Assembly: GCA_951812745.1 (NCBI GenBank)
Contig: OX638327.1
Span: forward strand, 372,001-436,000
Length of the DNA stretch: 64,000 nucleotides
Source of the DNA: an uncultured Nitrospirales bacterium
Lineage (GTDB): Bacteria; Nitrospirota; Nitrospiria; Nitrospirales; UBA8639
Reading direction: 5' to 3'
Shown piece after piece: positions 15,652 through 48,348 of this stretch (positions within the stretch are counted from its first letter, which is position 1; every line of letters starts with the position of its first letter). Position numbers and translations under genes: made by a program. The notes beneath the pieces were generated by a model. The model was not told the DNA's origin. It did not search any database and was given only the letters and a program-made list of their open reading frames with translations.

Positions 15652-16974
15652 ATGACACCGATTGCAAACGGGCGCGCGTGCCGGTACGTGGACGTGGTCG
15701 GTCTGTGGTGCGTGTTGGGGTACGTTGCCCTCGCCTTTCTGTCGCGGCGACCCGGCGAACCCGACCTCCTGGCGTTCTTCCTCCTCGTTGCGTGGACCGG
15801 CCTGCCGGTCTTCAGCCTCTACCTGTACTTCCACCGGTGTGACGAACCGTTCCCACTCGGCCGCTTGATCTTCTGGGCGGTAATCTTTCGGATCTGTGGC
15901 TTGGTCGGCGGACCGTTTTTCGAGGACGACTTCTATCGTTACCTGTGGGACGGCTACCGTTTTGCGACGATCGGCACACCCTACGGCGCCGCCCCGGAAG
16001 CGTTCTTCACCGACCCAGGCGTTCCGGCGGTGTTTCACAGAATCCTGGACAATATCAACAATCCCGAATTACCCACTATCTACGCCCCGGTCACGCAGGT
16101 CGTCTTCCTGCTCGGCTACTGGTTGAACCCGGGCAGCGTCACAGTCTTGCAGTCGATCCTGATCGCCGTTGATCTCGCGACCATTGCGCTGCTGTTGCGC
16201 GTGGCCCCGGCAGGGAACGTCATGCTCTACGCGTGGTGTCCGCTGGTCGTCAAGGAGATCGCCTTTACCGCGCACCCGGACGGCATCGGTGTCGGCCTGT
16301 TGCTGGCGGCGATTGTGCTGGCCCGGGGTCATCGCTGGTGGGGTGCCGCCGTCTGCCTGGGGATGGCCGTGGGGAGTAAGATATTCGCACTGGTGCTGGT
16401 ACCGTTGGTGCTGATCGGCGCGAGCTTCGGGCATTGGGTGCTGTTCGTCGTCACGCTGGCGGCGTTGTATGCACCGTTCATCCTGTACGGCGGCACGGAC
16501 TTCGAGTCGCTGCTGGTCTTTGCGCGCGAGTGGGAGTTCAACTCGGCGGCATTCGGTTTGCTCACCACCGTCTTGCGGCCGTTCGAGGCCAAGCTCGTGC
16601 TGGGCCTGTTGTGCGCCGTCTTCTGGGGACGCTACTATTTCCGATATTCCCGGAGTAATGCACGTGAGGTCCCGCGAGGCGACTGGCTCTATGGCGTGTT
16701 GCTCATGGCCTCGCCGGTGATCAATCCATGGTACCTGCTCTGGCTGCTGCCGTTCGCGGCGGTCGCGCCGAGCGTCTCCGCGTGGACGGCCTCCGTCGCG
16801 GTCTTTCTCGGCTACGTGATCGGGCTCAACCTGAATGACGGCGATCTGCAACCGTACCAGCAGCCGGTGTGGGTCCGGCCCCTGGAGTTCGGTCTGATCC
16901 TGCTGGCGCTGGCTTATGACCTGTTCCGGCGGCGGGCGACCGGTCTCGGCGCAGGACACAAATTGATGGGGTGA
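15652..16974 (+). CDS. Polytopic GT-C-type glycosyltransferase
   Basis: 440-residue membrane protein with about ten hydrophobic segments. After the second or third segment comes an acidic loop GPFFEDDFYRYLWDG, the kind of motif that binds the lipid-phosphate sugar donor in GT-C mannosyltransferases (PIG-M/DUF2029-like). It probably moves a sugar from a polyprenyl-phosphate carrier on the outer face of the inner membrane; that is inference from fold. The gene begins a three-gene run with a GT2 enzyme (9-base gap) that could make such a donor. By eye, GC in third positions is clearly higher than in neighbouring housekeeping genes, which hints at transfer. Confidence 0.75.
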   Translation: MTPIANGRACRYVDVVGLWCVLGYVALAFLSRRPGEPDLLAFFLLVAWTGLPVFSLYLYFHRCDEPFPLGRLIFWAVIFRICGLVGGPFFEDDFYRYLWDGYRFATIGTPYGAAPEAFFTDPGVPAVFHRILDNINNPELPTIYAPVTQVVFLLGYWLNPGSVTVLQSILIAVDLATIALLLRVAPAGNVMLYAWCPLVVKEIAFTAHPDGIGVGLLLAAIVLARGHRWWGAAVCLGMAVGSKIFALVLVPLVLIGASFGHWVLFVVTLAALYAPFILYGGTDFESLLVFAREWEFNSAAFGLLTTVLRPFEAKLVLGLLCAVFWGRYYFRYSRSNAREVPRGDWLYGVLLMASPVINPWYLLWLLPFAAVAPSVSAWTASVAVFLGYVIGLNLNDGDLQPYQQPVWVRPLEFGLILLALAYDLFRRRATGLGAGHKLMG

Positions 16975-43970: not shown

Positions 43971-44408
43971 TTATGTTCGCAATGGATCAATCACCGTGAG
44001 AAAAGAGAACCGGTGAAAATCGGTGTCGCGAGTGCAGATTCGGCTGATCCCGTGTTCGCGCATGAGCGCGGCCGTGTGAAGGTCGTGCATAAAGTTACCC
44101 CGAGCATCGGGCAGTTCACGCACGACGAGACTCAAAACGTCCGCATGTCGTGCCGTCGGCACAAGCACGTCAATCCCTGGTGACGTCAGCAGGAGTTCAA
44201 GGAATCGCCAAGCATCCTTGGCATTCCACGGTGACCGAAAGACCCGGGGATGGGTGCTGACGCGAAGGAATTCATAACAAATATTCCAGGTCAGAAAGTC
44301 AGGCGCCGGATCATCCAGGCACTGCTCGACCAGGGCACGACACGGCCGATGGAATTCGGATTGTCGGTCGGCGGCGTACAAGAGGATGTTGGTGTCGAGG
44401 ACCAGCAA
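43971..44408 (-). CDS. vapC: PIN-domain toxin (VapC type)
   Basis: 145-residue PIN ribonuclease. The acidic active-site set is present: D5 (LVLDTN), E46 (CYEFLR), D109 (FMHDLH) and D128 (CTRDTD). VapC toxins cleave tRNA or rRNA when released from VapB. The likely start is TTG at 44408, directly abutting the antitoxin stop (TGA-TTG) in the same frame, so translation probably depends on reinitiation after vapB. This would keep toxin below antitoxin. Confidence 0.87.
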   Translation of the reverse strand: MLVLDTNILLYAADRQSEFHRPCRALVEQCLDDPAPDFLTWNICYEFLRVSTHPRVFRSPWNAKDAWRFLELLLTSPGIDVLVPTARHADVLSLVVRELPDARGNFMHDLHTAALMREHGISRICTRDTDFHRFSFLTVIDPLRT

Positions 44409-44648
44409 TCAGGGTTCATCCATCGCCGAATACAACTCGGCACGATTCGACACGTCCACGAGTGCCCCACCACTGCGCCAAGTCGGGAGCACCGGGCGGG
44501 CGTGTCCCCTGTCCTCGACGTGAGTAGTCTCGGCCAGAATGCGTCGCAGCGCCGCTTCCACGAGTGCGGAAATAGTCGTTCGCCGCCGGGCCGCCTCTTC
44601 ACGCAATCGGCGCATCACGTGGTCGTCTATGTTGAGCGTTGTCTTCAT
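44409..44648 (-). CDS. vapB: Ribbon-helix-helix antitoxin (VapB type)
   Basis: 79 residues. KTTLNIDDHVMRRLREEAARRRTTISALVEAALRRIL is a ribbon-helix-helix DNA-binding domain. The C-terminal part (LPTWRSGGALVDVSNRAELYSAMDEP) would wrap the PIN toxin. The ATG at 44648 lies within one copy of a repeated operator-like sequence and about seven bases after the promoter -10, so its mRNA is probably leaderless. No Shine-Dalgarno is possible in such a transcript. Confidence 0.85.
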   Translation of the reverse strand: MKTTLNIDDHVMRRLREEAARRRTTISALVEAALRRILAETTHVEDRGHARPVLPTWRSGGALVDVSNRAELYSAMDEP

Positions 44649-44684
44649 ATGGATAACCATACGCAAGATATGGATAACCGTCAA
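44647..44684 (-). promoter_or_regulatory. vapBC promoter with direct-repeat operator
   Basis: On the minus strand TTGACG (44684-44679) and TATGGT (44661-44656) have a 17-base spacer, with the vapB ATG seven bases on. Two identical 12-base copies of GGTTATCCATAT (44679-44668 and 44658-44647) are 21 bases apart, exactly two helical turns. They cover the region beside the -35 and the -10 to start codon. This is the layout expected for VapB autorepression. Confidence 0.7.
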
Positions 44685-44702
44685 GCTCGGGTAAGTCTTT
44701 GG

Positions 44703-44723
44703 ATCCCCGATCAAGCCGGGGAT
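44703..44723. repeat. ATCCCCG palindrome
   Basis: ATCCCCG (44703-44709) and CGGGGAT (44717-44723) pair across a seven-base loop, followed by GACAGG. It belongs with the GTCATTCCCGC and 48257 copies as a family of REP-like stems. Confidence 0.6.
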
Positions 44724-46468: not shown

Positions 46469-46566
46469 ACAAGAGGTACTCCTTATCGTCCGTGTGTACT
46501 CACTCGTTCATAGTTTTGCCCTCACCCCAGCTTTCTCCGGCGTTGGGGAGAGGGGGGCTCTTCCGT

Positions 46567-46622
46567 TCCCCTCCTTTGTAAGGACGGGGACTTTTTCTGA
46601 AGAGGGAAAAGTCGGGAGGTAG
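46567..46622. repeat. MITE-like half element
   Basis: CCCCTCCTTTGTAAGGACGGGG through GGGAGGTAG matches the right half of the 94-bp element at 33529-33622. Confidence 0.55.
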
Positions 46623-46632
46623 AGTAGCCTTC

Positions 46633-46665
46633 GTAGGTCGGGTTAGCCGCAGGCGTAACCCGACA
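46633..46665. repeat. GTAGGTCGG palindrome
   Basis: GTAGGTCGGGTTAGCCG pairs with GGCGTAACCCGACA. Intact family member. Confidence 0.7.
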
Positions 46666-46695
46666 ATTCCCACCGTTGAACGATTCCGTTACTGC

Positions 46696-46726
46696 TGTCG
46701 GATTACGCTCCGCTAATCCGACCTAC
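46696..46726. repeat. GTAGGTCGG palindrome, inverted copy
   Basis: TGTCGGATTACGC and GCTAATCCGACCTAC: the same family as 46633 in the opposite orientation. Confidence 0.7.
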
Positions 46727-46758
46727 AAGGACTGGCGCCTTCTGGGTATGCGACGATT

Positions 46759-46794
46759 CTACCCCACCTGACCTCCCCTTACAAAGGGGAAGGA
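46759..46794. repeat. MITE-like half element
   Basis: CTACCCCACCTGACCTCC and CTTACAAAGGGGAAGG match the left half of the element at 33529-33622 almost base for base. Confidence 0.6.
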
Positions 46795-46829
46795 ACGGTG
46801 GCTATATATAAATGGTACCGTTCCAGGAT

Positions 46830-48167
46830 TCAAGCGTCTTCCGCTCCGGGGCGTGTCGCCAGCAACAGGATGAGCGATCCTGTCAGGGTTGCCAGCAGGG
46901 ACCCGGCGAGGACCGCGGTCTTGGCGGCTTCGACCAGCGCCGCGTCGTCGAAGGCGAGGGTGGCAATGAACAGGGACATGGTGAACCCGATCCCGGCCAG
47001 GCAGCCCACCGACGCGACGTGCCAGAGACCGATCCCCCTGGGGAGTTCCGCAATGCGCAGCATCACGCCCGCCCAGGCGAACAGCCAGATGCCCAGCGGC
47101 TTGCCGATGACGAGACCCAGGATGATGCCCAGGCTCATCGGCTCGGCCAGCAGGTAAAGCGCCTCGCGTTCCAGGCTCACGCCGGCGTTCGTCAGGGCGA
47201 ACAGGGGAAGGATGGCGAACGTCACGAACGGCATGAGCATATGTTCGAGTTTCTGCAGGGGGGCGGTGGCGTGTTCCGTCAACTGCTCCATCGAGTGCAC
47301 GATATGGTGCTGCCGGTCGGTCAGCAGGGTCCTGTCCGCGGGCAGTCCGGTGTTCCGCAGTTGTTCCAGCAGGTCCCGCGTCCAGTCGTGCAGTTGCCGG
47401 GCGTTGATGACGGTACGTGCCGGAATGGTGAACGCCATCAGAACGCCGGCGAGGGTCGCGTGCACGCCCGACTTGTAGAACGCCACCCAGATAGCGAGCC
47501 CGATGAGGAAGTAGAAGATCGGGTTGCGCACGCCGATGACGTTGGCGCCGATGGACATCCCCAGCAACAGGCCGCCGACGAGCAGGCTTCCCGGCGCGAT
47601 GGCGTCCGTATAGAAAATCGCGACCATGACAATGGCCCCGATGTCGTCCACGATAGCCAGCGCGGTAAGGAAGATCTTGAGTGAAAGCGGCACCGGAAAA
47701 ACCGCCAGAATGCCCAGGGCGAACGCGATGTCCGTGGCCATCGGAATACCCCAGCCGCGGGCGAACGCCCCGTTGCCATTGAAGGCGAAATACACGAGGG
47801 CCGGCACGGCCATGCCGCCGGCCGCGGCGAGGACAGGCAGGGCCGCCTTCCGGGGATTGGCCAATTCGCCGGCCAGCAATTCGCGCTTGATCTCCAGACC
47901 GACCACGAAAAAGAAGAGGCCCATCAGGCCGTCGTTGATCCAGTGGCTGAGGGATTTGTTCAGGCCGAACGGTCCGACGGAGAGGGCGAGTTTCGTCTGC
48001 AGCCAGTGGTGATAGAATCCGGCCCAGGGCGAGTTGGCCCAGGCGACGGCCACGACCGTGGCCGCCAGCAGCAGGAGGGCGCCTGACAGTTTGTGAGCGG
48101 CGAAAATCTGGAAGGGCCGCGCAAGACGGTCGGCCAGACTCTCTTCGATGTTCCAGGACGGTTTCAT
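46830..48167 (-). CDS. nhaA: Na+/H+ antiporter NhaA
   Basis: 445 residues with about twelve membrane segments. IKRELLAGELANPRKAALPVLAAAGGMAVPALVYFAFN, TDIAFALGILAVF and the two-aspartate transport site in LAIVDDIGAIVMVAIFY are the hallmark motifs. It exports sodium in exchange for protons at high pH. The central periplasmic loop and C-terminal half are longer than in E. coli NhaA. Third positions are visibly richer in G and C than in proS or rseP, and repeats lie on both sides, so it may be an insertion into the rseP-proS region. Confidence 0.95.
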   Translation of the reverse strand: MKPSWNIEESLADRLARPFQIFAAHKLSGALLLLAATVVAVAWANSPWAGFYHHWLQTKLALSVGPFGLNKSLSHWINDGLMGLFFFVVGLEIKRELLAGELANPRKAALPVLAAAGGMAVPALVYFAFNGNGAFARGWGIPMATDIAFALGILAVFPVPLSLKIFLTALAIVDDIGAIVMVAIFYTDAIAPGSLLVGGLLLGMSIGANVIGVRNPIFYFLIGLAIWVAFYKSGVHATLAGVLMAFTIPARTVINARQLHDWTRDLLEQLRNTGLPADRTLLTDRQHHIVHSMEQLTEHATAPLQKLEHMLMPFVTFAILPLFALTNAGVSLEREALYLLAEPMSLGIILGLVIGKPLGIWLFAWAGVMLRIAELPRGIGLWHVASVGCLAGIGFTMSLFIATLAFDDAALVEAAKTAVLAGSLLATLTGSLILLLATRPGAEDA

Positions 48168-48205
48168 GAATTGGAAGCGAACGCGCGCGCGGGCATTGAA
48201 CGGAT

Positions 48206-48238
48206 TGTCGGGTTACGCCTTCGGCTAACCCGACCTAC
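48206..48238. repeat. GTAGGTCGG palindrome, inverted copy
   Basis: TGTCGGGTTACGCC and GGCTAACCCGACCTAC, just upstream of nhaA. Confidence 0.7.
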
Positions 48239-48256
48239 GGGACCGTTCTCCTTCTG

Positions 48257-48285
48257 TCATCCTCGACCCGATCGGGGATCCAGGG
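48257..48285. repeat. GTCATCCTCGACCCG-type REP stem
   Basis: GTCATCC, CGACCCGATCGGGG and ATCCAGG: a member of the GTCATTCCCGC-like family seen at 19587 and 44703. Confidence 0.55.
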
Positions 48286-48306
48286 TCTTTGTCTTTTGTA
48301 TTCGTA

Positions 48307-48337
48307 GTAGGTCGGATTAGCGTAGCGTCATCCGACA
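48307..48337. repeat. GTAGGTCGG palindrome
   Basis: GTAGGTCGGATTAGCG and CGTCATCCGACA, in opposite orientation to the copy at 48206. The pair brackets the REP stem at 48257. Confidence 0.7.
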
Positions 48338-48348
48338 AATCGGCTGAA

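Follow-up and report, generated by a model that had tools for sequence, protein, structure and literature searches.

In haloalkalitolerant Ca. N. alkalitolerans, the antiporter NhaA has been linked by the authors to salt and pH homeostasis, according to the part of the paper drawn on here (PMC7784846). A comparison of Nitrospirales genomes names the Mnh antiporter and BetT for marine adaptation, and the term 'nhaA' is absent from its main text (PMC12342949). The GTDB genus bin75 (Ca. Nitrosymbion) is described as predominantly sponge-associated, with genomes averaging 2.36 Mb (PMC11812461), and bin75 itself is MPMZ00000000, from work on the sponge Aplysina aerophoba (PMC5649159). These portions of the genus literature (PMC5649159, PMC11812461) suggest that the organism analysed here is sponge-dwelling. 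For GTAG-type repetitive extragenic palindromes (REP) and REPINs, the main text of PMC3733652 contains neither 'Nitrospira' nor the motif GTAGGTCGG that marks the repeats of the present locus. Searches of the literature on nhaA, sponges and Nitrospira, and on REP and Nitrospira, yielded no publication title on this locus.

The window, which is the whole stretch of 64,000 nucleotides analysed here (G000:C1:372001-436000), belongs to a genome of one contig with 2,346,994 bases (G000). ORF and Pfam analysis revealed an intact nhaA between rseP and proS, as the earlier note had read it (Table 1), in a neighbourhood that presumably also includes uppS, cdsA and dxr, which we named by sequence features. 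The PF06965 match spans residues 22-434 of the product, i.e. the whole domain, far above the cut-off of 23.5 bits, and E. coli NhaA structures match it at an E value of 1e-95. Residues D146, D174/D175 and K356 are the aligned counterparts of D133, D163/D164 and K300 of 4au5, which we take to be functionally important, comprising the ion-binding aspartate pair and a conserved lysine. The SGVHATLAGV motif is preserved as well, and about 45 additional residues (about 252-297) are absent from E. coli NhaA. Judged from its sequence, nhaA would encode a single-copy Na+/H+ antiporter, with a probable role in Na+ export and in pH homeostasis under marine conditions. Its dN/dS lies between 0.17 and 0.28 in all six pairs of G000 with relatives, compared to 0.07-0.16 for rseP and proS in the same pairs, which points to purifying selection somewhat weaker than that on the two neighbours.

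Table 1. Features at and around the rseP-proS junction (window positions)
Feature	Position	Strand	Evidence
proS, downstream neighbour of nhaA	44747-46468	-	PF00587, PF04073, PF03129
MITE-like element, second half, separated by REP doublet	46563-46631	-	alignment with G006
REP unit, GTTA type, inward-facing doublet, proS side	46633-46667	+	motif count; nhmmer 42.3 bits
REP unit, ATTA type, proS-side doublet	46694-46726	-	motif count; nhmmer 36.1 bits
MITE-like element (CCACC...CCTTTGTAAGGGGAGG...AGGTGG), first half	46727-46801	-	alignment with unsplit G006 element
Promoter-like TTGAAT-17 nt-TATATA facing proS	46805-46833	-	conservation in 8/8 loci
nhaA, Na+/H+ antiporter, 445 aa	46830-48167	-	PF06965 Na_H_antiport_1 profile, 465 bits
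REP unit, GTTA type, rseP side	48204-48238	-	motif count; nhmmer 43.1 bits
REP unit, ATTA type, rseP side	48307-48338	+	motif count; nhmmer 35.3 bits
rseP, M50 site-2 protease with PDZ domains, upstream neighbour of nhaA	48349-49713	-	PF02163 and PDZ families

Comparison with relatives indicated that nhaA is a gained gene at this junction. It lies intact between rseP and proS in seven of the 14 genus genomes (G000, G001, G003-G007), and as a remnant, which retains residues 177-245 together with the C-terminal end, at the same place in G013. The remaining genus genomes have rseP directly adjoining proS without nhaA (five: G002, G008-G011), apart from G012, whose assembly contains neither nhaA nor an rseP or proS orthologue and was left out of the comparison as its junction was not found. 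Outside the genus, rseP and proS adjoin without nhaA in all eight genomes examined, drawn from 32 genomes in which rseP matched over its full length; the claim that the two genes normally form a direct junction, to which nhaA is an extra, is supported. Among 295 Nitrospirota genomes, only eight passed an E value of 1e-120, five from the genus and three at 48-50% identity, and no relative above 50% was found outside the genus. In the G013 remnant (L072), the front of nhaA is replaced by repeat sequence and the gene is in decay.

In the tree of rseP and proS from 21 genomes, ten genomes form one clade (support 100/99), nine of which are drafts of 20-160 contigs. The clade divides into two halves, {G000, G006, G007} and {G001, G003, G004, G005, G009, G011, G013}, with supports of 96/91 and 98/97, respectively. 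As nhaA occurs in both halves and is absent from G010, G002 and G008, which lie outside them, a single gain at the base of the clade is the shortest account. We consider it quite probable that one gain of nhaA was followed by vertical inheritance and by loss or decay, and that REP and MITE-like elements arrived separately. We propose that horizontal transfer brought nhaA into the junction once, in the ancestor of the ten-genome clade, which lies in GTDB genus bin75 (Ca. Nitrosymbion), and that the gene was then inherited mainly vertically under purifying selection. It would have been lost in the G009/G011 lineage, in one or two events given the weak pairing of these genomes (60/88), and would be decaying in G013. 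The REP doublets and MITE-like elements, by this proposal, would be frequent occupants of intergenic DNA that entered the spacers at varied times and places, and not the vehicle of nhaA.

The phylogeny of nhaA within the clade leaves some room for exchange. In the protein tree of nhaA, G001 groups with G000 (88), and the G001 nhaA and its rseP-side spacer resemble those of G000 and G006, whereas its rseP and proS belong with G003, G009 and G011; both reject G001 with the group of G000 (p-AU of 0.027 and 0.0005, respectively, for a group named after the trees had been seen). This conflict makes some exchange of nhaA between species possible, in that the gene, once gained, might have spread through homologous recombination within the flanking rseP and proS, with some copies such as that of G001 being secondary. 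We regard such spread as rather unlikely, and it would add to a single gain followed by vertical inheritance rather than replace it. At the DNA level, the nhaA tree has little resolution within the clade, and a grouping of G001 with G003-G005 is not rejected (p-AU of 0.515); windowed identity showed no clear recombination breakpoint around G001. The agreement between nhaA and species phylogenies, which the earlier note had named as evidence against capture of the gene, is thus compatible with the data inside the clade only, and breaks down beyond the genus.

Searches beyond the genus found the closest relative of nhaA, among the best 80 matches, in OY282354.1, the record of a 3.57 Mb chromosome from an 'uncultured Gammaproteobacteria bacterium', with 80% identity over residues 1-444. 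Its neighbours there are genes that we read as hemA, prfA and prmC. The next outside match among the same 80 is a Sandaracinaceae draft at 56%, and among 77 genomes comprising OY282354.1 itself and its relatives the next best copy reaches 49%. Filtering 102 NhaA loci for length and absence of stop codons left 87, which together with the seven genus copies gave 94 proteins, 44 of which were used for the protein tree. In this tree, the genus and gammaproteobacterial copies form one clade (100), with the gammaproteobacterial copy branching outside the genus copies (93) and two Myxococcota copies adjoining (99); other NhaA of Nitrospiraceae fall away from them. Neither a phage nor a plasmid emerged as a vehicle: one viral contig matched at 41%, and all of the 1005 plasmid records with a match stayed below 60%.

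Losses within the clade (G009, G011, G013) are also what one would expect if nhaA had been ancestral at the junction in Nitrospiraceae and lost many times. We hold this to be very improbable, as the junction lacks nhaA in every outside genome examined and in G002, G008 and G010, and as other Nitrospirota NhaA reach at most 50% identity, with those of the family itself placed elsewhere in the tree.

The composition of nhaA differs from that of its surroundings. With a GC3 of 0.852, it ranks first among the 47 window ORFs that reach 150 aa (mean 0.655, sd 0.084), which agrees with the GC-rich codons ascribed to it at first sight, and by codon-usage distance it ranks third among the 28 that reach 300 aa. 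In all seven genus loci its GC3 exceeds that of rseP and proS by 0.06 to 0.15. The gammaproteobacterial copy shows a GC3 of 0.772, compared to 0.606 and 0.618 in its neighbour genes, and the two Myxococcota copies reach 0.961 and 0.984. A GC-rich donor may have supplied nhaA to both the genus and the gammaproteobacterium. A second unusual ORF of the window, 15652-16974(+) with 440 aa, has a GC3 of 0.823 and ranks second of 28 in codon distance.

The repeats around nhaA belong to a family of GTAG-tagged palindromic units with many dispersed copies in G000, which fits the description of REP. The window contains six copies of the motif GTAGGTCGG where 0.33 would be expected, and the entire 2.35 Mb genome contains 107, compared to 33 for the reversed-pattern control. 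Inverted palindrome pairs were rightly noted in both flanks of nhaA: the proS-side pair (GTAGGTCGG at 46633+ and 46718-) points inward and measures 94 bp in total, and the rseP-side pair (48230- and 48307+) points outward with a gap of 68 nt. Across the gene, the units form a 36-nt inverted repeat with arms at 46632-46667 and 48204-48239 that are 97% complementary. The core of the MITE-like element has four matches in the window with at most two mismatches, against 0.02 expected. The 'MITE halves' described on one side are a single element interrupted by the REP doublet, being whole in G006 and split in G000; G006 has some unrelated bases at the split, so the exact REP insertion point is not clean.

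Sampling of 20 places in G000 showed that inward REP doublets, of 75-122 bp, are organized as REPINs, with ATTA and GTTA units paired in 12 of 13. Of the 44 sampled REP matches, 40 belong to the ATTA or GTTA class and were used to build the REP profile (20 loci), the four fitting neither class being left out. Clustering of the 100 listed sites among the 107 gave 76 clusters, with nine neighbouring pairs no more than 2 kb apart compared to 4.7 at random, so that bracketing of a gene by REP is by itself unremarkable. The Y1 transposase profile (PF01797, RAYT) has no match in G000, and the same search was positive in five of 14 controls including E. coli; with all matches in the genus weak (5 of 14 genomes), a resident RAYT/Y1 transposase was rejected as the mover.

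The spacers of the relatives were searched with the REP profile. Units occur on both sides of nhaA in only two of the seven carriers, G000 and G001, the rseP-side matches of G001 being weak half-units of 11-13 bits. They are confined to the rseP side in G004, G005 and G006 (weak in the last) and, partially, to the proS side in G003, while G007 has nhaA with spacers of 61 and 64 bp and no REP match on either side. Conversely, the junction of G009 holds two REP units without nhaA, and one unit lies next to the remnant in G013; no unit was found in the empty spacers of G011, G010, G008, G002 and five outside-genus genomes. Position and orientation vary between genomes, so the carriers do not share the identical repeats that a composite mobile unit would leave, and by eye the empty-site spacers show no match to those around nhaA. 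The rseP-side spacers of G003 and G007, which belong to different halves of the clade, can be aligned with each other and are free of REP, suggesting that the REP-free form came first. On the other hand, G000, G001 and G006 carry a REP fragment at a common rseP-side position, and this fragment could itself be old. Genome-wide, GTAGGTCGG counts are 18-107 in the ten-genome clade and 5-16 in the other four genus genomes, the low counts being uninformative given a reversed control of 24-51, and they do not follow nhaA, as G009 without the gene has 106.

The earlier note had proposed that nhaA reached the junction by means of the repeats flanking it, REP doublets or MITEs, which either carried it or inserted it by recombination. 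Although the two-sided REP and 36-nt inverted repeat of the REP-rich G000 and the fragment common to G000, G001 and G006 would suit such repeat-mediated capture, we judge it very improbable, mostly refuted by the REP-free G007 and further opposed by the two-sided repeats in two of seven carriers, the shifting positions and orientations, the Y1 results, the REP-bearing but nhaA-free junction of G009 and the absence of GTAGGTCGG from 11.3 kb around the closest outside copy. The expectation named beforehand as evidence against capture, nhaA in relatives without repeats, is largely borne out by G007 and, for the rseP side, by G003; the other carriers do have REP. Most likely, the short repeats around nhaA arrived later and did not bring the gene in; the order of gene gain before repeat arrival rests on parsimony.

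The 3' end of nhaA carries a promoter-like sequence facing proS, the -35-like hexamer of which overlaps the nhaA stop codon. The pattern TTGAA(T/A)-17 nt-TATATA is kept in all eight loci, i.e. the seven intact genes and the G013 remnant, in which TTTATATATAGC (46801-46812) is invariant, and it has no match in G009 and G011, where nhaA is gone. Among fourfold sites of nhaA, 77 of 183 (42%) are invariant in the seven copies; 12 unchanged positions running would then be expected about 3 times in 100,000 (0.42 to the 12th power, assuming independence and for a stretch picked post hoc). A 9-of-12 consensus scan did not list the TATATA site, which has 8 of 12 matches and falls below the limit. The sole minus-strand match of the scan, 46784-46756, lies in a MITE-like half and also faces proS, making it a second candidate promoter for this gene. 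Terminator-like sites are near the shuffled level (3 versus a mean of 1.9). From these sequence patterns, the candidate promoter straddling the stop codon probably drives proS and may keep it transcribed. We tentatively entertain, while doubting it, that a GC-rich third party, perhaps myxobacterium-like, gave this NhaA branch to both the sponge-associated nitrite oxidizers of the genus and the gammaproteobacterium, and that the insert became locked in because its 3' end served as the proS promoter; this sequence is retained even in G013, where nhaA is dying.

Variation also occurs on the other side of proS. The proS-BFN interval, measured in 11 genus genomes, has lengths between 116 and 3012 bp, and three of these genomes (G000, G004, G010) hold differing genes of toxin-antitoxin type there. 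The window has a PIN and RHH pair at 43971-44714(-), which did not turn up in any of 20 other loci, whereas G004 (L064) has a HigB-like and an HTH gene, and G010 (L070) a BrnT and an REase-ARP protein. In addition, G010 has the first 33-36 rseP codons a second time, in inverted orientation, at G010:C1:2083944-2084051 (L070), about 3 kb downstream of rseP and beyond proS.

Altogether, the gain of a gene and the accumulation of repeats, which look like one event within a single genome, could be told apart as separate events, and one junction displays gain, loss and decay of nhaA. REP and MITE brackets should not be taken as capture without checking relatives. The gain places a salt and pH gene in a genus described, in the part of PMC11812461 drawn on, as predominantly sponge-associated. 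Compared to E. coli NhaA (PF06965, 4au5), the product shares a whole-length family match and keeps the aspartates, the lysine and SGVHATLAG, but differs in the roughly 45 extra residues between two aligned parts; within the family, its branch is nearest to Myxococcota and one gammaproteobacterial record. The dispersed palindromic units starting with GTAG, often in inverted doublets, resemble the GTAG REP and REPIN sequences, and the ATTA/GTTA pairing (12 of 13 inward doublets) the heterodimers, as presented in PMC3733652, whereas G000 has no Y1/RAYT match. Similar to Ca. N. alkalitolerans, as portrayed in part of PMC7784846, the present genome represents a single-gene NhaA in a Nitrospira lineage.
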